From an uncultured Selenomonadales bacterium (lineage in GTDB: Bacteria; Bacillota; Negativicutes; Selenomonadales; Selenomonadaceae), in contig OMYB01000007.1 of the NCBI GenBank assembly GCA_900315155.1, positions 1 through 64,000 of the forward strand: DNA of 64,000 nucleotides, in the 5' to 3' direction. Within the stretch, counting starts at the first letter, position 1, and each line of letters begins with the position of its first letter. The translations under genes and the position numbers were made by a program. Positions 501 through 10,232 of the stretch are shown in pieces. The notes under the pieces are model-generated. The model had not been told where the DNA came from. It ran no database searches and worked only from the letters and a program-made list of their open reading frames with translations.

Positions 501-1640
501 TCAGGAAAGCTCGGCAAAAGCCCCCATCGCCAGCTGTGCGATATAGGCTGCCGAGGCCCCGAGTGCAGCAGGATTGACCTGGAATTCTGGATTGTGATTG
601 GCTGCAGAACGGCCCGTGCCGACGAGAACGAAACATCCGGGAATCGTCGTCTGGTAATAGGCAAAATCCTCTCCGGCAAGCGACGTCGGTGCCGGCTCGA
701 CAGAAATTCCCTGCTCCTCTGCTGTTTTCCGCGCAAACTCCGTCCATGCCGGTGTGTTATCCGTCGCCGGAGGGCCTGCGACCCAGTCGATCTCAGCCGA
801 TCCGCCAAAGCTCTTTGCCTGGCCATCCGCGAGATCGCGCATGCGCTTTTCGATGCGGGCACGGTCGGCATTATCGAGACAGCGGACCGTGCCTTCGATC
901 TCCGCTGTCTCCGGGATGACATTCCAGGTATTGCCGCTCGTAAACCGTGTGATACTCACGAGGTCGCGGTGTCCCGGGTCGATATTGCGGCTGATGATGC
1001 TCTGCGCCGCCACGACGAACGACGAAGCCATGACAATCGGGTCGATGCCGCGTTCCGGGTGGGCCGCATGCGTGCCCTTTCCGCGAAAACGGATCACGAA
1101 TTTATCCACGGATGCCGTCACAGCACCTTCGCTGACGCCGACTGTCCCCACGGGGAATAACGGCGACGTATGCAGGCCAAAGAGAGCCTGCACATCCTTC
1201 AGAGCGCCCGTATGCAGGACGTCAACAGCCCCGCCCGGTGCTTCTTCGCCCGGCTGGAACACGATGCGGACGGTTCCCGGCAGTTCTTCCTCATGCGCCT
1301 TGAGATAAAGCGCCGCACCGAGCACGCTCGTCAAATGGAAATCATGACCGCAGGCATGCATCTTCCCCGGTGACTCCGATGCGTAGGGCAATCCCGTCTG
1401 CTCGGTCACAGGCAGCGCATCGATATCCGCGCGCAGGCCGATAAACGGCGCTTTCCCCGTACCGACCTCCGCGATGAGGCCCGTATTCAGGGGAACATCA
1501 AGGATACGGATGCCCGCCGCCCCGAGAGCCTTCCGCAGGCGCTTCGTCGTTTCAAACTCCTCGAACGAAAGCTCCGGATGCCGGTGAAACCAGTAAAATT
1601 CCTCCGTAATGGTTCTCGTGATGCTTTCCCGCTGCTTCAT
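501..1640 (-). CDS. M20 family metal-dependent amidohydrolase (hippurate/N-acyl-amino-acid hydrolase type)
   Basis: The product is a full-length (379 aa) M20D peptidase-family protein, a cytoplasmic two-metal hydrolase that removes acyl groups from amino acids or related amides. Visible landmarks are HPELSF near residue 21, GLRADIDALP near 69, the metal-binding ACGHDFH near 96-102, PGEEAPGG near 130 and LAGEDFAYY near the C-terminus. The substrate cannot be read from sequence. The chosen start is the ATG at 1640; a GTG at 1649 is equally in frame. The gene lies 16-25 bases downstream of the barrel gene, so it may be co-transcribed with the Pel locus, though a functional link is unproven. All expected catalytic residues are present. 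Confidence 0.9.
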   Translation of the reverse strand: MKQRESITRTITEEFYWFHRHPELSFEEFETTKRLRKALGAAGIRILDVPLNTGLIAEVGTGKAPFIGLRADIDALPVTEQTGLPYASESPGKMHACGHDFHLTSVLGAALYLKAHEEELPGTVRIVFQPGEEAPGGAVDVLHTGALKDVQALFGLHTSPLFPVGTVGVSEGAVTASVDKFVIRFRGKGTHAAHPERGIDPIVMASSFVVAAQSIISRNIDPGHRDLVSITRFTSGNTWNVIPETAEIEGTVRCLDNADRARIEKRMRDLADGQAKSFGGSAEIDWVAGPPATDNTPAWTEFARKTAEEQGISVEPAPTSLAGEDFAYYQTTIPGCFVLVGTGRSAANHNPEFQVNPAALGASAAYIAQLAMGAFAELS

Positions 1641-1665
1641 ATGCTTCACCTATCCTCTCTATACA

Positions 1666-2805
1666 TCAAAAGGCATGGGTATACCAAAGTGCCGCCGCCA
1701 CGCCCTGGTAGGGCACGCGGCCCTGCTCCCGGCGACGGTAACGCTCGAGGCTGAACGCCCAGCTTTCCGTGGACGACGCCTGCCAGTCGACGCGGGTGAG
1801 CAGCGACCAGCGCGTCCACGCCCCCGTATCGGCCTCACGGTATAGCGTATCATATCCCGTCGTAGAATGGAAGCGGCTCGCCAGGACTTGCCAATGCACG
1901 CTCGGCTCGGCCATATGATGCACGCCGATAGCGATTTCGTTATCATCGGTCGCCTTCGCCTCCCACACCGCACTCGTACGGCGCTGATGGCCATAGGTCG
2001 TATAGGCTTCAAAATCGTCCTTTTCTCCCCATCTCCCGCTGTACGCCCAGCCGATCTCGAACTCCGCTCCGTCGCGGTATGTGCCTGGCTCTCCATCTGC
2101 CGTCTGTGTCGTCCTGCCCGTATAGGAGCCTCGGAGCCAGGTCTCTGCCTGCTCGCGTTCCCCGATATGCCGATACGACAGCCTCCCGCGGATAATATCA
2201 CCGGGATCCACGTTGTCATCCCAGGATTCCTTGCGGTAGTCGTAGGAACGCCGCACTTCATAGGAAAGCTTCGCATGCACGGAATCTCCCTCCGTCACAC
2301 GGCGCACGCCCTCCATCTCCGGCACGATCTGCCAGCCGGCACCAAAATCCTGAAAGAAGGCAAGTCCCTGCGGCACTCTGGCTTTATCATAGGAGCGGTG
2401 CTGCCCCGTCGGCAGGCTGACGGTCAGCCCATAAATCATACCACCAGTGGGATGCTCACTGTGATAGCGTACGCTCAGTGCCATATCGAGCAGGCCGGCC
2501 GAAGTGCCCTGCGGGCCGTTCTGGTACGAGCCAAGCCACCCTGCCGACAGCCCGGTCTCGAGCCAATGGCGTGCATCCCCATGCGGCCACGCGGCATCGC
2601 TGATTTTGTCCTGTCCCGGATAGCGGTCCAGGCGCTCCGCCATATACACGGACAACGGGAAATACGTCTGATGTCCGCGATGCGCCGTTGCCATTCCATC
2701 CCGGCGTTCTTCTCCCTTCGTATGGTCGTAAAGCATACCGAACTGGATGCCCCGGCTCGAACCGAAATTCCAGAATCCATGCGCCACGGTATCCGCATCC
2801 TTCAC
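1666..2805 (-). CDS. outer-membrane beta-barrel (C-terminal part of an interrupted Pel-locus export protein)
   Basis: This open frame encodes about 379 residues of alternating polar and aromatic strands and ends WYTHAF, a terminal Phe motif typical of outer-membrane barrels. It has no signal peptide of its own. It lies in exactly the same frame as the coiled-coil gene at 2839-3639, from which one TGA (2839-2841) and 11 sense codons separate it. Those codons continue a helix-like stretch (QDAAKSSLAQAV). The most likely history is one gene of about 656 sense codons cut by a nonsense mutation. Its place after pelG suggests a role in exporting the polymer across the outer membrane, replacing PelB. 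If translated alone from the GTG at 2805 it would stay in the cytoplasm. Confidence 0.7.
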   Translation of the reverse strand: MKDADTVAHGFWNFGSSRGIQFGMLYDHTKGEERRDGMATAHRGHQTYFPLSVYMAERLDRYPGQDKISDAAWPHGDARHWLETGLSAGWLGSYQNGPQGTSAGLLDMALSVRYHSEHPTGGMIYGLTVSLPTGQHRSYDKARVPQGLAFFQDFGAGWQIVPEMEGVRRVTEGDSVHAKLSYEVRRSYDYRKESWDDNVDPGDIIRGRLSYRHIGEREQAETWLRGSYTGRTTQTADGEPGTYRDGAEFEIGWAYSGRWGEKDDFEAYTTYGHQRRTSAVWEAKATDDNEIAIGVHHMAEPSVHWQVLASRFHSTTGYDTLYREADTGAWTRWSLLTRVDWQASSTESWAFSLERYRRREQGRVPYQGVAAALWYTHAF

Positions 2806-2838
2806 AGCCTGCGCGAGGCTGCTTTTCGCCGCGTCCTG

Positions 2839-3639
2839 TCATTTTTCCGCCTCAGCCTGCTGCTGCTCAGCGGACGCCACGGCGGAAGCATCCGTAACAT
2901 AACGGCCATCCGAACCGGAGACTTCCGTATATCCGCCCTCAGCCATGTACTGGTCAGCCAGCGCCTCCACAACATCCATGTTGTTCTGGTCATAGCCCAG
3001 TTCGTCGATGGCGCGCGCTACCGCCTCAGCCCGATTGGCCGCATGATAGGTCACGCTCCCCTCACCACCCGGCTGCCAGACGACGGCGGCCTGTGCCGAA
3101 GCCACAGCCTGCTGTGCGGCATCGCGCTGTGCCGTCAGCGCATCCACGTCCGCCTGCCGTTCTGCGATAACCTGCCAGTAGTCATAGGCCGCCTGCTGCG
3201 CCGCAATCGCCTCGCGCGTGCGTTGGGCACTCAGGGCCTGCGCATCCTGCACGGCCTGTGCCGACTGCGCCACCGCCTGCGTACTGTCATGGAGGTTTTT
3301 TTCATCCTCCGCCACAGCATTCCTGGCCGCCGTCACGGCCTGCTGCGCATCCGCGAGATTTTTCCTGCCCGTCTCTACATTAGCGCGCGCCGTGCGCAAA
3401 TCGCTCTGCGCATGGTGGACGTTCACGATCGTCTCGCGTGCCTGACGCAGATTCTGCAGCGTGGGCGCTACCTCAAGAAGCGGATCATGCCATGCTGCCT
3501 CCGTCCGCACCGGCAGCCATGCCCCGCTCAATAAAGAAACAACCACCGCCGTACCACATACCTGATACAGCCTTTTTTTCTGTTCAGCCCTTCGCGCTGC
3601 TTTCCGCACGCTTTTTCTCGTCCGTCTCATCGGATTCAC
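2839..3639 (-). CDS. signal-peptide coiled-coil protein (N-terminal part of an interrupted Pel-locus export protein)
   Basis: The product is 266 residues. A basic N-terminus is followed by a hydrophobic segment (about residues 25-42) and a likely cleavage site near TEAAW. A long Ala/Gln-rich coiled coil (about residues 55-190) comes next, then an acidic tail that stops at TGA (2839-2841). The same frame continues beyond the TGA into an outer-membrane beta-barrel, so this is probably the periplasmic domain of one larger protein. The start overlaps the end of pelG by 56 bases, implying the same operon. If it is not a broken gene, it would be a secreted coiled-coil protein. The coiled coil could span the periplasm in place of the TPR scaffold of PelB; this is inference. 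Confidence 0.7.
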   Translation of the reverse strand: MNPMRRTRKSVRKAARRAEQKKRLYQVCGTAVVVSLLSGAWLPVRTEAAWHDPLLEVAPTLQNLRQARETIVNVHHAQSDLRTARANVETGRKNLADAQQAVTAARNAVAEDEKNLHDSTQAVAQSAQAVQDAQALSAQRTREAIAAQQAAYDYWQVIAERQADVDALTAQRDAAQQAVASAQAAVVWQPGGEGSVTYHAANRAEAVARAIDELGYDQNNMDVVEALADQYMAEGGYTEVSGSDGRYVTDASAVASAEQQQAEAEK

Positions 3640-4969
3640 CCTCTTTCTGTTCCGTATTCAGCTGCTCCAGATTCACGAGCCGCCCATTTCCCAGCCAGCG
3701 TGCCAGACGTGTCAAGGGTCCATGCGGCGCGCGATAAAACACCGGCTGTGCGCAGTAGACATAGTATGCAATGTCGGAAGTGAAATGCGTCAGTTCCCGC
3801 CAGGCGAGGACCAGCGTCACTGCCGCCGCCAGGAAGAAGGTGAAGCCATAGGTCTCCGGGCCTCCACGGTAAAGCCCCCAGAGGCCGAACCCGGCATTCA
3901 GCAGGGCAAACGACAGTCCGGTCCGCAGCACCGCCTTCTGCAGGTCAAAATACGTCAGCAGAATAAACAGCACCTGCATGACGCCGGTGAAAAACACGGC
4001 GAAAAGCAGCACGTTAAACAGGCTGACCGATACTTCAGGCAAGCCCGCATGGGCGAGCAGGAGACTGCTGAGAGCCAGTGCAGCGAGCGTAAAGAGGAAT
4101 TGGAACTCGACGACCTGCCGAAGCTCGAACCAAAGCGTATAGAGCAGGTCACGCTGGGCATCCTCGATTTCGCGCAGGTTGCCGCGCCGCGTGACCGCAT
4201 CGAAATAGGCTGCGTATTTCGTATAGAAATTCGTCTCCGCCGCGACGACGAAGAGCACCATGAGCGGCAGGATCGAGATAAAGGCATAGAAGGTTACGAC
4301 ATCGTAGGCCGGTGCATAGCGGTACGTGGCCGAGACGTCGACACCCCATGGGCCCTGCCAGATGATGAGGTTTGGCACGAAGAGCCCGAGCATATAGCCG
4401 AGCGAAGCCAATCCGATCCGCCAATGCCGCTCAAAATACGGCAAAAAACCGAAGGGCAGTCCTCCGCGCGGCATGCCGAAGCAGCTCACGATATGGATGA
4501 AGAACAGCGTTAAAAGCAATCCCATGCCCAGCGTCACGGCAAGCATCGCAGCGAGGTGCGGAGGCGACATGCCCGATACGAGCAGGAACCAGTCCGTCAC
4601 AACCGATAACAGCGAACCGGCCGCAAACCCGCCGATGAGCCGGCGAAACCGCTTGACGGCTGTGAGATAGATGCTCTGCACCCAGATAATGAGCATCTCG
4701 AGGAAAAAGACCCAGCTCAGCACGCTTTCCAGCATAGGCAGCGGCTGTCCGTAGAGGAAAAGGCCAGCAAAAATGCTGCCAAGAACGACGACGATGGCAC
4801 ACATGCCGAACAAGGATGCCGTAACGTCGCGGTAAAATGAGGTCGAGAGGCAGTCCGCGATATAGCGCGTAAGCACCATCGCGAACCCGCTCACGAGAAT
4901 CTGCGAGAAGACGAAAGCATACACGATAGGCGCGACAAAAAGGCTCTGCTCCGCTCCGACGCCTGCCAT
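3584..4969 (-). CDS. pelG: Pel polysaccharide transporter PelG, apparently with an internal N-terminal deletion
   Basis: The product is 461 residues of multi-pass membrane protein matching PelG, the MATE-like inner-membrane partner of PelF. Recognisable blocks are VYAFVFSQILVSGFAMVLTR and IADCLS near the N-terminus, about eleven hydrophobic segments, and a charged C-terminal tail. It starts MAGVG, the normal beginning of PelG, but then jumps directly to a segment that in relatives lies about 60 residues further on, so the amphipathic start and first membrane helix seem to be missing. The same deletion removes the expected pelF stop. The frame is kept, so a shortened protein could be made but is unlikely to be normal. 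Confidence 0.8.
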   Translation of the reverse strand: MAGVGAEQSLFVAPIVYAFVFSQILVSGFAMVLTRYIADCLSTSFYRDVTASLFGMCAIVVVLGSIFAGLFLYGQPLPMLESVLSWVFFLEMLIIWVQSIYLTAVKRFRRLIGGFAAGSLLSVVTDWFLLVSGMSPPHLAAMLAVTLGMGLLLTLFFIHIVSCFGMPRGGLPFGFLPYFERHWRIGLASLGYMLGLFVPNLIIWQGPWGVDVSATYRYAPAYDVVTFYAFISILPLMVLFVVAAETNFYTKYAAYFDAVTRRGNLREIEDAQRDLLYTLWFELRQVVEFQFLFTLAALALSSLLLAHAGLPEVSVSLFNVLLFAVFFTGVMQVLFILLTYFDLQKAVLRTGLSFALLNAGFGLWGLYRGGPETYGFTFFLAAAVTLVLAWRELTHFTSDIAYYVYCAQPVFYRAPHGPLTRLARWLGNGRLVNLEQLNTEQKEGESDETDEKKRAESSAKG

Positions 4970-6401
4970 GATCCCGCACCTGCCCTTCTCTTTCGGTTTC
5001 CTGATAAATCCGGCGATAAGAATCGATGAAATGCTCGTGGGTATAGCCGCGCTTCACGCGTTCATAGCCTATGGCGGCCATCTTTTTCCGCAGCGGGTAA
5101 TCCCTCGCGAGCCGAAGGATTTCCTCAGCCATAGACTGATCATCGAGCGGCGGAACGACGGCACCGGCCGTGCCGAGCGTATCGTGGCTGTCGCCGTAGA
5201 TGAGCTCACGGCAGCACCCGACATCCGTTGTCACATAAGGGCGGTGTGCCGCGAATCCCTCGAGCACGGAGAGCGGCTGTCCCTCACTGATGCTGGAAAG
5301 CACAAGGATATCCATGCGTGGCAGATAGTCTGTCACTTTGATGGAGCCTGTGAAATAGACACGCTCCAGTCCGAGCTCGGCAGCCATGCGCTGAACCATG
5401 TCCGCATACTCCGGGTCCTCCTCGAGGTTTCCCATGACGTAGAGCTCCGTATCCGGCATGGCCTGCTGCACATGCAGGAACGCACGCAGGAGCGTCACAA
5501 TATCCTTGATGGGTACGACGCGGACAACCGCACCGATGCGGATAGGTCCGCTGTGATCTTCGAGCTCAGGGATATCCTTGAACCGCTCCATATGGATGCC
5601 ATTCGGTACGATGCCGATCTTGCCCGGATCGCAGCCGAGTTCCGCCTCGATCTCCGCGTTGTGCTCGAACAGCGTGTAGACGTGATCGGCCTGGCTGTAG
5701 GACAGCCGCGCGAGCGCGTAAAAATACGAAATCCACACGGATTTGAAATCGCCCTTGGCCCATTCGCTCTTGATGATCTCCGCCTCGCGTTCGCGCGAGT
5801 AGATCCCGTACTCCGTGATGATGTAGGGCTTATGATACAGCGTCGCCGCAATGCCGCCGATGATGCCGCAGTACCCCGTCGCCACGCTGTGGTAGATATC
5901 CGCCTCGGGAATCTCCTGCTGCAGCAGATAAAAGAGTGGCAGCAGCATGGAGCGCATCGTCCAGAAGAAATCCGTGAATGGCAGATAGCTGAACTTTTCG
6001 CGGTAGACGGAGCGGATGATATCAAAGAAATCCCGCGCCATGAAGATGTCGAGCGGGCTCTTCCATTTGCGGCGGTGGAAAATCTCGATGAGGCGGGCAA
6101 AATCGATATCGCCCTCCCCGCTCACGAGTGCCAAAAGCGCCTGCCGCTCCTCTGTGCTGAGCATGCGCTCCTGCAGGCCGCTCGCCTGCTGCGCCAGGAT
6201 TTCGTCGAAGAACACTTCCTGGATGCCCGCGAAATTCTGTGGGAACTTGTACTTGAATGCGCCGCGGTCTTTGGCGAACGCGCCGATGGAGTACACGGAA
6301 AACTCGATGTCCTGCAGTCCCTCGATGAGCATCTGCGTCCAGGCCGACACGCCGCCTACCACATAGGGGTACGAACCCTCCGTCAGCAGACATACTTTCA
6401 T
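4431..6401 (-). CDS. pelF: Pel glycosyltransferase PelF (GT4), with an aberrant read-through tail
   Basis: Residues 1 to about 477 match PelF, the cytosolic GT4 transferase that polymerises the Pel polysaccharide from UDP-sugars. The N-terminus reads LTEGSYPYVVGGVSAW, and the donor-site motif SSISEGQPLSVLEGFAA is intact. After about residue 477 the frame continues for roughly 180 residues through pelG in the wrong frame, giving an Arg/His-rich tail unlike any protein. PelF proteins are normally about 480-510 residues. The native stop was probably in the part of pelG now deleted. The start overlaps the preceding DUF2194 gene by four bases (ATGA). Confidence 0.88.
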   Translation of the reverse strand: MKVCLLTEGSYPYVVGGVSAWTQMLIEGLQDIEFSVYSIGAFAKDRGAFKYKFPQNFAGIQEVFFDEILAQQASGLQERMLSTEERQALLALVSGEGDIDFARLIEIFHRRKWKSPLDIFMARDFFDIIRSVYREKFSYLPFTDFFWTMRSMLLPLFYLLQQEIPEADIYHSVATGYCGIIGGIAATLYHKPYIITEYGIYSREREAEIIKSEWAKGDFKSVWISYFYALARLSYSQADHVYTLFEHNAEIEAELGCDPGKIGIVPNGIHMERFKDIPELEDHSGPIRIGAVVRVVPIKDIVTLLRAFLHVQQAMPDTELYVMGNLEEDPEYADMVQRMAAELGLERVYFTGSIKVTDYLPRMDILVLSSISEGQPLSVLEGFAAHRPYVTTDVGCCRELIYGDSHDTLGTAGAVVPPLDDQSMAEEILRLARDYPLRKKMAAIGYERVKRGYTHEHFIDSYRRIYQETEREGQVRDHGRRRSGAEPFCRAYRVCFRLLADSRERVRDGAYALYRGLPLDLILPRRYGILVRHVCHRRRSWQHFCWPFPLRTAAAYAGKRAELGLFPRDAHYLGAEHLSHSRQAVSPAHRRVCGRFAVIGCDGLVPARIGHVASAPRCDACRDAGHGIAFNAVLHPYRELLRHAARRTALRFFAVF

Positions 6402-8048
6402 GATGCATCATCCCTCCAGTAAAGCCGCGCCTGCGTGCCCGTCATGCGGACGAGGTAGCAGTCCTCGCCGATCACTTCTGCCGTGCACCCATCCGCATGA
6501 TCCAGTTCCCGCTGCGAGCGAAGGAGGAACCGTACCTCGCCGCTGTGTCCCCAGACATGGAGCTCGCAGTAGTTCTCGGTACGCTGCACGCGGTAGTCGA
6601 GCTGATCGAAATCCTCGAAATACGGCAGGCTCTCCGAGGCCGTCACCGGCGTGAGCCACGGATAGCGCGCCGTCAGGTCCGCGAGAAACGACGTGAACGC
6701 CGCTTTCATCTGAGACCAGTGCTGATCCTCACTCGACGCGTAAAAAATCTGATCCGGGTGCACGAAATGGGCAAAAACTCCGCGATGCGAGAGCTCGCTG
6801 AGCGCGCTCAGCCGGATGGCGGCATCCGGCATATAGCCGGATGAGATGCGCGGCAGCTGGTAAATCCCGTTCGCATCCCGGTGGAACGTCTGGTAGTAAC
6901 CCGGATAAGCGCGCGGTCCGTTGTAGAGCGAGGCGATGCATCGCAGCGTGGGGATTGCGGACTGAACCACGGCAGCGCCGTCCGCATCGAGGATATTCGA
7001 CGCCGGCACATAGACCTGGAACGTGTAATCCGGATACAGCGACTTCGCATAGCGATACAATTCCTTTGTCGCCGCCTCCATCTCCTCAGCATCCGGCCAC
7101 GGCGTATAGCCGAGCTCCGTATCGGAAGTATCTTTTGTCGTGAGCAGCTCATGGTTATAGCCGTGCAGACCGAGCTCCCCGCCCATATTCAGGAGCGCAT
7201 GCCCATACGCGATTGCCGTGTTGCGCGCATCCGCCTCGGGGAACGGCCCCTGCGTCTGGTTGTTGTACGTCTCGACGAGCATACCCGTGTATTTCAGCTG
7301 GTTCTGCCGCGCGAGATCGCACATCCAGGGCCACCACTCCTCGCGGTAAAATGCCTCGGCCGTGGCTTTGCCCGTCTCGGCCTTCAACCGGGAGAAATTT
7401 CCCTAGCATCGGCATGCCATCGCCGTAAGCAATCTCCGTCACCGCATCGTCCGCGAGACGCACAGAGGGCGAAGGCGGCAGCATATCGGAGGTGAGGCCC
7501 AGATACAGTCCCTTGCTCCCCACGAGGAAATCCGTGCGAAAGTCCAGGCCCTCATGCGGCATCGCAGGCCCCATGCCGGCAATGCCGAGCACCTGACGCC
7601 ACGCCGCTGGCGCCGCTTTCCAATCGCTCACGCCCGGATACTGGAGCACGAGCAGCGTGCCGCCCGCGCGCACGTAGTCGAGGACAGCCTGCTGGGCGGC
7701 CAGGCTCTCCACGCGTCCCGTGGCGAGCAGGACGGCCTGCGTACCGGAGGGGATTGGGATGGCTTCCTGGAGCGAATGGCTCTCGAAACTTTTTTTCTGC
7801 TCCTGCAGCATGGTCTCGGCGTTATGCCGTGTGAACATGCTCGGCACCTCCGTCGGGTCGTAAAGGATGACAAAATGATCCCGTGCGATGTCCGCCGCCT
7901 CACTCCAGGGCTCCTGCGCCGTCATGCGCTGGTGTGCCGCATTGCGAAATGACGCAGCCTGCCAAAAAGAAGACGAGCGCGTAAGCTGGAAGAACAAGCC
8001 GAGCAGAGCGGCCAAAACCAGGAGAAATACGATACTGCGCCGATTCAT
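6398..8048 (-). pseudogene. DUF2194-like Pel-locus protein (membrane-anchored, deacetylase-like), frameshifted
   Basis: Two overlapping frames together make one protein of about 549 residues. The first part (from 8048) has a signal anchor (about residues 5-25) and an amidotransferase-like fold region with DYVRAGGTLLVLQYPG. The second part (to 6398) carries LGLHGYNHE, which resembles the zinc-binding HxxxH of polysaccharide deacetylases. The frames switch within 7395-7403 (CTAGGGAAATTT on the coding strand); removing one base restores a sensible join (LGNFSRLKAETGK). DUF2194 genes sit beside pelF in Gram-positive Pel loci, where the analogous protein is a deacetylase. Stop and start overlap pelF and pelE by four bases each. 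The name rests on memory of family context. Confidence 0.75.
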
Positions 8049-8926
8049 GACCGCTCACCTCCCCAAAAGCGGATAGCGTTCAGCGCCACGGGGGACAGCC
8101 GGACCGGCAGAGCCTTGATCTCCTCCACGGCCTGCCTGATGCCAGCCGCATCATGGCGGGCCACGGCGAGGACGAGGGCAAGCCCCGCGGGCGTTTCTGC
8201 GTCTGGATTTTGGGCGCGCGCACGGCGGATATCCTCCTCCGCGCGGTCGTATTCACCCATCTCGATGGCCAGGCGAATGGCCATTTCCTGATACATCGTA
8301 CGATCCGGCAGCTTCTCCGCCAGTCTCTCCAACACGCGGAGCAATTCTTTTTGCTTTGCCCCGCGATCCTTTTCGTCGCGCGAGCCCGTCCGGAGGAAGT
8401 CCTGCAGTTTCTCCGCATAGCGCTCGAGGAGTGCCTGCTCCTCCTCGCCCTCCTTGCCGGGCAGGGACTGCTCGATCTCATAGAGCTCTGCCGAGAGCTT
8501 TTCGTTGCGCGCGGTCAGCAGCGAGACCGCATAGTAGGTGATCTCGCGGTCCTTGTCGTTGATCGCCTCACGCAGAATGGCCGGATTGTCCACGATCTCC
8601 TGTTTGATGGCCGTCGTGAACAGGCGCCGTTTCAGCTGAGCATTCGTCATGAGATGGATATCGTGAAGCGGCACGACATCGGCCTGATACGCCATCTGCC
8701 CAAACGACGGCAGCACCCGCTCCTCGCGCAGGTCGCCCGGCTCCACCGCATGAAAATGTGCCAGGCGGCTGACGAGCAGCCAGACGAGCAGGCTCACAAT
8801 GCCGACGCCCGGCAGCAGGAGCACGAGCACGGACTCCACGGCCGCTTCCTGCCGGCCTGCCACCCGTGTGCGCAGGAGAAAGTACACGAGAGCGATGATG
8901 ATCTGCCAAACGAATAACGCCGCCAT
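8045..8926 (-). CDS. pelE: PelE-like membrane/TPR protein
   Basis: The product is 293 residues. Two hydrophobic helices lie near the N-terminus (about residues 2-18 and 33-55), followed by a cytosolic alpha-helical region with TPR-like repeats. This is the architecture of PelE, an inner-membrane scaffold that works with PelD, PelF and PelG. The ATG at 8926 is preceded by GGAGG and follows the pelD stop by one base; the reading frame extends further upstream but that part only overlaps pelD. The stop overlaps the next start (ATGA), so translation is coupled. This is the only core pel gene here with no visible lesion. Confidence 0.75.
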   Translation of the reverse strand: MAALFVWQIIIALVYFLLRTRVAGRQEAAVESVLVLLLPGVGIVSLLVWLLVSRLAHFHAVEPGDLREERVLPSFGQMAYQADVVPLHDIHLMTNAQLKRRLFTTAIKQEIVDNPAILREAINDKDREITYYAVSLLTARNEKLSAELYEIEQSLPGKEGEEEQALLERYAEKLQDFLRTGSRDEKDRGAKQKELLRVLERLAEKLPDRTMYQEMAIRLAIEMGEYDRAEEDIRRARAQNPDAETPAGLALVLAVARHDAAGIRQAVEEIKALPVRLSPVALNAIRFWGGERS

Positions 8927-8927
8927 A

Positions 8928-10232
8928 TCAATCGACCTCCTGCACGCGTACGACAGGCACATCGACGCCGGCCAGACGCTTTTGCACGATACGGCCCGTC
9001 TCCGCATCCGCCTCGGCGAGAAGAACCGCATAGCTGCCATCCTCCTGCACGCCGATAAAATCGTCCGCACGGACGCAGTGCTCCAGCCGCCTGTCCAGCT
9101 CCTCCGCGCTCAGCGCGCCCGTCTGCAGGACGAGCAGGAGACTCCTTGCCCCCTCGATAATCGCCTGCGTCTTGCCGTAGAGCAGGCCCATCGCGCCGAT
9201 GTAGAGATAGTTGAAATCAAAGGGCGAAGAAAAACCATAGCGCTGCTGCCACCAGGCAAAGCCCGCCATGATCCCTGCGCCGGCCACGTTCTCGAGGAAC
9301 GGCACAGCCTGCTGGAACCAGTGGCGCCACCGGCTGCATTTCTCCTGCTCGCGGCGCTGCTGCTGCACGATGGTATACGCAGACACCATCCCCTCCGCAA
9401 CGGAGCGCAGGCCGCTGCCATCCCGCTCATGCGCCGTCCAGCCGAGCTCGCGCCGTGCCAGCGTCCCCGAAAACGCCGCGCTGCCAAACAGGATATCCCG
9501 ATCCGCCTGTCCCTCGTCCGGATGTTTTTCCCGCACGGTCGGCCAGGCAGCACCAGCGGGCAGCACGGGACGGACGCGCGACAGGAAATCCTGCCAGCTC
9601 AGAGAAACGCCAGGGCCGAGATGGACAACCGGCGCCTGCGTCCGCACCGCGACGCACTGCCAGAGCCCATACGCCGCATCGCGCGCCGAAAGGAAGGCCT
9701 GCTCGCCCCGAACGGAAACCGTGGAGGCATGACGCTCCAGTATCGCGTTCAGGATGCGCCCCAGCAGCCCTTCGCCCGCCCGCTGCCCCGGTCCATACAG
9801 CTCCGGCAGCCGGACGATCGTGATCGCCATGCGCTCCTGCTCGCGCCAGCTCGCCGCCAGAGCCTCGAGATGGCATAGCCTGCGCCCGAGACGTGTCTGC
9901 GGCGCGACCGCATCCGACTCCTGTACCCGGCGCCCGCACGGGAACACATCCGCATGGCTGAGCAGAAAGACCCGCTGTACCGCATGCTCCTGCGCCAAAG
10001 ACAACAGCCTGTCGAGCCGCGCGGCCCCATCCGCGCACGAGGGCTCCATTTCATAGAGGATGACCGACGGCCCGGCGGCCGCCACATCATCCGATGCATG
10101 TGCCCCCATGATGCCTTCCGGCAAATTCTGCACGCTCCAGCCCTCTTTCTGGTAGCACGCCGTCACCTACAGGGCCAAAAAATCTGGCAGTCCAACAAGC
10201 AAAAGGTTCTGTTCTGCCTTTTTCACCTGCAT
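8928..10232 (-). pseudogene. pelD: PelD-like c-di-GMP receptor with N-terminal SDR domain, interrupted by an early TAG
   Basis: Translation from the ATG at 10232 (AGGAAAGGA upstream) gives a Rossmann-like beginning (NLLLVGLPDFLAL), a TAG at 10167-10169, then an uninterrupted frame of 412 residues. Domains in order are an SDR/epimerase-like region (to about residue 270), two hydrophobic helices (about 300-345), and a short degenerate GGDEF-like tail. There RADD (9060-9071) aligns with the c-di-GMP I-site RxxD, and EDGSY (9030-9044) replaces GGDEF, exactly five residues later. The GAF domain of Pseudomonas PelD is absent. SDR-PelD fusions are known from Gram-positive Pel loci. The GTG at 10166 could allow a truncated product lacking the first beta strand. 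Confidence 0.7.

Follow-up and report, generated by a model that had tools for sequence, protein, structure and literature searches.

A coiled-coil and beta-barrel gene after pelG, probable outer-membrane exporter of the Pel system of Negativicutes

Gene content and state of the locus

The window studied here is the first 64 kb (64,000 nucleotides) of contig OMYB01000007.1, from the 2.49 Mb genome of an uncultured Selenomonadales bacterium (class Negativicutes). Its minus strand carries a locus for a Pel-type exopolysaccharide, in which open reading frames (ORFs), Pfam and tblastn give the order SDR-PelD, PelE, DUF2194, PelF, PelG, coiled coil and beta-barrel. The last two parts, together called the coil-barrel below, are the subject of this report. 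The gene order is confirmed as real and lies far above chance. The original prediction, made from the window alone, had named pelD-pelE-DUF2194-pelF-pelG with coordinates that proved right, since ORF, Pfam and tblastn results place the genes there. It had also put a coil and a barrel directly after pelG. Both were found there in one frame, with an in-frame stop between them.

The order pelD, pelE, deacetylase, pelF, pelG is of the Gram-positive type; it is damaged in the window and intact in many relatives. Gram-positive pelDEA(DA)FG loci are known from Bacillus cereus, streptococci and clostridia, and an SDR domain at the N-terminus of PelD from Brevibacillus, streptococci, clostridia and actinobacteria (PMC7112168). 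The Negativicutes locus shares with them SDR-PelD, separate deacetylase and glycoside hydrolase genes, and the lack of a detected PelB or PelC. Monoderm pel loci have no outer-membrane module, whereas in Negativicutes pelG is followed by the coil-barrel.

PelE and the remaining genes were matched by tblastn with an intact relative, the reference being locus L036 of genome G027 (Table 1). Relative to L036, the PelD remnant retains an inactive-epimerase-like N-terminus (Pfam Epimerase, 5.8e-08), a transmembrane region and the C-terminal end of GGDEF; residues 395-662 of 732, i.e. GAF and most of GGDEF, are deleted. Its ORF contains a RADD stretch and L036 PelD the stretch RAED, which could correspond to the RxxD I-site of a cyclic di-GMP receptor with degenerate GGDEF. 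DUF2194 (Pfam match 3.7e-85) lacks residues 214-272, about 60 residues, and changes frame near position 7403. PelF is nearly complete (residues 1-474 of 479; DUF3492, 4.4e-74), while PelG lacks residues 1-57, lost at the pelF/pelG junction. Apart from the single stop, coil and barrel share one frame, and one high-scoring segment pair (HSP, 3645-1669) spans both, corresponding to residues 52-809 of the L036 coil-barrel. Relatives have a GH114 gene (PelA-hydrolase type) after the barrel; the window lacks it.

Judged from its sequence, the window locus is in decay and cannot be functional in its present state. Open frames similar to those of intact relatives persist for PelF, the core of PelG and the barrel, but that the locus should function through frameshifting, stop read-through or because its breaks are sequencing errors is hardly credible: deletions of ~268 residues in PelD, ~60 in DUF2194 and 57 in PelG, with the loss of GH114, are beyond base-calling error. 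A second pel copy in the same genome (G000:C20:38400-42500; L023 8000-12500) is more degraded, with a barrel fragment and a GH114 fragment, and the pel locus is broken in the same-genus genomes G001 and G002. Sequencing error was rejected as the source of the breaks because the losses are large deletions that recur in the second copy and in the genus. In same-genus G003 (82% complete) no pel locus was found. The tree of barrels groups the window copy with G027, G663-G665, G024 and G668, apart from G001 and G002, so its history differs from that of its congeners' copies. The predicted outer-membrane module for Pel fails for this genome, where the window locus has decayed, and stands for relatives that keep it intact.

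Table 1. Features of the pel locus in the window and the basis of each assignment
Feature	Position	Strand	Basis
SDR-PelD remnant	8928..10223	-	ORF 10166-8928; aligns with L036 PelD residues 20-394 and 663-723 of 732
PelE	8045..9070	-	tblastn with L036 PelE, 48% identity, residues 4-295 of 299 at 8926-8054
DUF2194 (PelA-type deacetylase candidate), broken	6398..8048	-	Pfam PF09960 on both pieces; HSPs 8048-7404 and 7402-6413
PelF glycosyltransferase	4968..6401	-	Pfam DUF3492 and Glyco_trans; 72% identity to L036
PelG	3584..4969	-	PF16933 positions 57-452, 8.8e-95
Coiled coil (predicted periplasmic) with signal-peptide-like start	2839..3639	-	stops in frame at 2841-2839
Beta-barrel domain (predicted outer-membrane)	1666..2805	-	barrel profile A1, E 1.2e-118; open frame, last residue F
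Flanking M20 peptidase	501..1649	-	Pfam Peptidase_M20; occupies the GH114 place of intact relatives

Conservation and linkage to polysaccharide loci

Intact relatives encode coil and barrel as a single protein of ~600-800 residues, directly downstream of pelG. It consists of a signal peptide, a helix-rich acidic coil of ~210-330 residues and a barrel usually with terminal F. The commonest order is SDR-PelD, PelE, DUF2194, PelF, PelG, coil-barrel, GH114, the last being a hydrolase of PelA type (4.2e-16 in L036).

The distribution was surveyed with a barrel profile of 13 rows (A1) in a sample of 250 genomes of the class, with PelG counted over the cut-off. The barrel was found in 45 of the 250. 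All 35 PelG-positive genomes have it, as against 10 of the 215 PelG-negative ones (Fisher p ~5e-34, uncorrected for kinship). In 33 of the 35, pelG is followed at a distance of 0.9-2.8 kb by the barrel, both lying on one strand, and chance adjacency of the two was rejected on these grounds. The exceptions are G016, with a duplicated DUF2194 between the two, and G006, with the barrel on another contig. The original prediction had proposed to check whether a coil-barrel always follows pelG in Negativicutes; these counts agree with it, as do 17 of 17 further loci with the order pelG-then-barrel, in most of which GH114 comes next. Among 380 genomes of the class 67 were barrel-positive. A narrower barrel alignment, A2, gave eight named loci, and in G030 PelF, PelG and barrel stand on three contigs. 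Beyond the class, the ~289 other genomes of a 299-genome phylum sample yielded no barrel, and 7 of these have PelG. A scan of viral contigs gave no match. A weak barrel match in G152 (3.5e-4), with no exopolysaccharide gene nearby, was set aside.

The barrels of PelG-less genomes, and the second barrel of G046, mostly adjoin other synthase loci. In L051 and L054 the neighbours are a PilZ-type cellulose-synthase-like GT2, MBOAT, AlgX and a GH5 cellulase, which suggests loci for a putative acetylated cellulose with the coil-barrel in place of BcsC. The barrel stands beside GT2 and a BcsB homologue in L046 and L049 (GGDEF and a DUF2334 deacetylase were identified in L049), and beside GT2 and a polysaccharide deacetylase in L048, L050 and L052. 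Linkage thus extends to Pel and three other synthase types. On the tree, barrels cluster according to their polymer system and not their species, with support of 100/97 for cellulose (two families), 99/97 for BcsB-GT2 and a weak 83/48 for deacetylase-GT2. G046 and G175 have two barrels each, and each barrel groups with its own system.

Some loci depart from the usual arrangement. The DUF2194 genes of G016 (L038 3675-7499) form a tandem duplicate between pelG and barrel. In G046 (L028 9155-12577) a single open frame, 1140 residues long, covers PelG and coil-barrel, which are separated by a signal-peptide-like stretch. This is possibly a fusion, not proven as such because a TTG re-start between the two is possible. 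Many coil-barrels of Selenomonadaceae have basic N-regions of up to ~100 residues, with repeated RMTRKRxR, before the signal peptide (e.g. L060 8840-9120, L063 8804-9100 and other coil-barrel ORFs). The barrel genes L037 5572-9174 (G018, ~340 residues inserted in the barrel), L092 (G658) and L030 11673-13103 (G021) include ones with large insertions and one split by a transposase-like ORF.

Predicted structure and comparison with known exporters

AlphaFold modelled the coil-barrel of Selenomonas infelix (L066; alignment of 9 rows, mean predicted local distance difference test 82, predicted template modelling score (pTM) 0.64) with helices at residues 8-128 and 178-284 and then 16-17 strands. 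This number was taken from the DSSP string and is inexact; an even count is expected. The first helix would be ~18 nm long at 0.15 nm per residue. The window barrel modelled alone gave a pTM of 0.75. Porins as well as PgaA, BcsC, AlgE, PelB and FapF were among the best Foldseek matches in the PDB, with PgaA 4y25 having the highest target TM-score (0.63) and BcsC 6tzk, 9b8a and 9b8h also among the best; the window barrel likewise matched porins and polysaccharide exporters. AlphaFold models and Foldseek agree on an outer-membrane barrel of ~16 strands. Structure prediction, which had been proposed as a check, therefore returned such a barrel with a helical hairpin, and polysaccharide exporters among its nearest folds. 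Sequence searches were less telling: the one Pfam hit on coil-barrels, Phenol_MetA_deg, was below threshold, and searches against the PDB gave weak TonB-receptor matches for the barrel and none for the coil.

In Pseudomonas aeruginosa the exporter is the PelBC complex (PDB 9h80), with a PelB scaffold modelled at >20 nm (PMC12141448), a length similar to that of the ~18 nm helix. PelB/PelC and the coil-barrel are both encoded in the pel operon and both join a barrel to a long helical part in the periplasm, and PelB matches the model structurally. They differ in that the coil-barrel has a helical hairpin and no tetratricopeptide repeats (TPRs), none being matched by Pfam, and no sequence relation between the two barrels was detected (hhalign probability 1%). 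A PelB homologue had been named as a finding that would speak against the prediction; PF24604, the C-terminal barrel of PelB, was found in none of 48 genomes, this one included, with a Caballeronia pel record as positive control. BcsC and PgaA are 16-stranded exporters at synthase-dependent polysaccharide loci, as is likely for the coil-barrel with its ~16 strands, but their periplasmic domains consist of TPRs. In the alginate system the TPR scaffold AlgK and the barrel AlgE are two proteins. The BCSC_C profile matched none of 10 genomes, including Negativicutes with coil-barrel cellulose loci, with Escherichia coli as positive control.

The amyloid transporter FapF (PDB 5o65, 5o68; PMC5557850) also has a periplasmic coiled coil joined to a barrel, and shows the highest identity in the Foldseek list (14-15%). 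It is a 12-stranded trimer with a short parallel coiled coil of ~40 residues, is encoded in the fap operon and exports an amyloid protein, not a polysaccharide. The coil-barrel differs from that family in its ~16 strands, its two-helix hairpin of >100 residues per helix and its linkage to pel and other exopolysaccharide loci.

In most Pel-type proteins of Selenomonadaceae the conserved motif [YW]xQN[RNYKH] occupies the predicted tip of the hairpin, 136-158 residues ahead of the barrel. It occurs in none of seven cellulose or GT2 coil-barrels, and at a rate of 0.9% in shuffled sequences. The motif may be lineage-specific rather than Pel-specific, because distant Pel-type coil-barrels lack it too. 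Coils of the Pel type have a net charge of -12.6 per 100 residues, those of the two GT2 types -9.0 and -6.3, and cellulose-type coils -4.0, the non-Pel sample being small. Strongly acidic Pel coils would suit a Pel chain that is cationic (PMC12141448).

Export of Pel and alternative explanations

The gene after pelG is interpreted as encoding the protein that exports Pel across the outer membrane of Negativicutes, a member of a family that also serves other polysaccharides; a probability of about 0.8 is assigned to this reading. Its basis is the observed gene order, conservation, restriction to the class, absence of the PelB barrel and grouping by system, together with the predicted fold. The best-supported view is that the coil-barrel acts in the manner of PelB, BcsC or PgaA while standing outside the PelB family, because neither the TPR scaffold nor the PF24604 barrel was found. 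The distinct module in place of PelB and PelC that had been predicted is well supported by conservation, by the missing PelB and by the structure model, and export would be its role; it is not dedicated to Pel.

PelF would polymerise the Pel chain in the cytoplasm under control of SDR-PelD via cyclic di-GMP, and PelD, PelE and PelG would take the chain across the inner membrane. DUF2194 and GH114 could represent a split PelA that trims it in the periplasm. The hairpin of the coil-barrel (~18 nm) would start at the outer membrane and point to the inner-membrane complex, docking there by its tip and guiding the chain, which would leave through the barrel of ~16 strands. The coil-barrel would so take the role of PelB, although its periplasmic portion is unrelated and neither PelB nor PelC was detected, while sister coil-barrels would act for cellulose and for the polymers of other GT2 loci.

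Several points weigh against this reading. The barrels of G029, G037 and G226, and a fragment at a contig edge in G083, have no polysaccharide synthase nearby, and these four genomes also lack PelF. The claim that PelB and PelC are both absent stands for the PelB barrel; PelC had no match in 29 genomes, this one included, in a weak test with one divergent query sequence. Seven loci are non-Pel contexts. Barrels independent of pel had been named as a possible refutation, and to the letter they exist, with cellulose and two other GT2 loci. Their occurrence beyond Pel suggests a family that exports polysaccharides in general, not chance adjacency, and since sister versions stand at these loci the family is regarded as one of Negativicutes and not of Pel only. 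Finally, Foldseek returns ordinary porins at similar E-values, for which reason the fold is no proof of export.

With OmpT, PorB and BpsOmp38 among the best Foldseek matches, the coil-barrel might be a general diffusion porin that stands beside pel and other exopolysaccharide loci by happenstance. This is very improbable, as the barrel tracks PelG in every PelG-positive genome and is rare otherwise, its place in the gene order is the same in several families, and a long acidic hairpin is present. OmpM/SLH porins of Negativicutes are outer-membrane proteins with coiled-coil linkers to the barrel. The coil-barrel resembles such OmpM-type tethers and could be an OmpM- or adhesin-like anchor for the polymer or the envelope, with the polymer leaving elsewhere. 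The few barrels without any synthase fit this explanation, and the large loop insertions in the G018 and G658 barrels would suit a surface role. Yet no Pfam domain, SLH included, precedes the coil in the scanned proteins, the genes are linked to loci that encode synthases for several polymers and the barrel subtypes follow the polymer, the barrel is of porin size by AlphaFold and Foldseek, and no other outer-membrane exporter family was found in the genomes searched for the PelB barrel (0/48) and BcsC (0/10). A tether is considered unlikely, though less so than a porin, and the exporter reading is preferred.

Gram-positive SDR-PelD loci with a separate deacetylase (PMC7112168), PelBC (PMC12141448) and FapF (PMC5557850) are already described. 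An operon survey reports that outer-membrane pore genes are often lost and does not mention Negativicutes (PMC7112194). The literature searched held no description of the coil-barrel module, and a search on Negativicutes, cellulose synthase and outer membrane found no paper. How biofilm polysaccharides pass the outer membrane of diderm Firmicutes is undescribed in that literature, and a class-wide non-TPR exporter is a testable answer. It would be a second design for carrying a sugar chain across the periplasm and would show how a monoderm-type Pel core fits with an outer membrane. It bears on biofilm formation of oral Selenomonas: S. sputigena, with PelF/PelG, forms biofilm and S. lamontii, which lacks them, does not (PMC13339959). 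On balance it seems rather probable that Negativicutes have an undescribed exporter family with a single antiparallel hairpin for TPRs and polymer-matched subtypes, and that diderm lineages with Gram-positive-type Pel recruited barrels independently.

Fusobacteriota may be a second diderm lineage with its own Pel outer-membrane part. HHalign found no relation between the coil-barrel and the Fusobacterium barrel. A DUF2194-type pel locus was seen in Cetobacterium somerae (L069 10001-13025) and Fusobacterium vincentii (L107 9001-13239), where PelG has a C-terminal extension with a lipobox and Y/N/G-rich repeats. Directly after pelG follows a barrel-like protein of 305-316 residues ending in GFEYIF; the versions of the two species share 29.6% identity, and in L107 the following gene is GH114.

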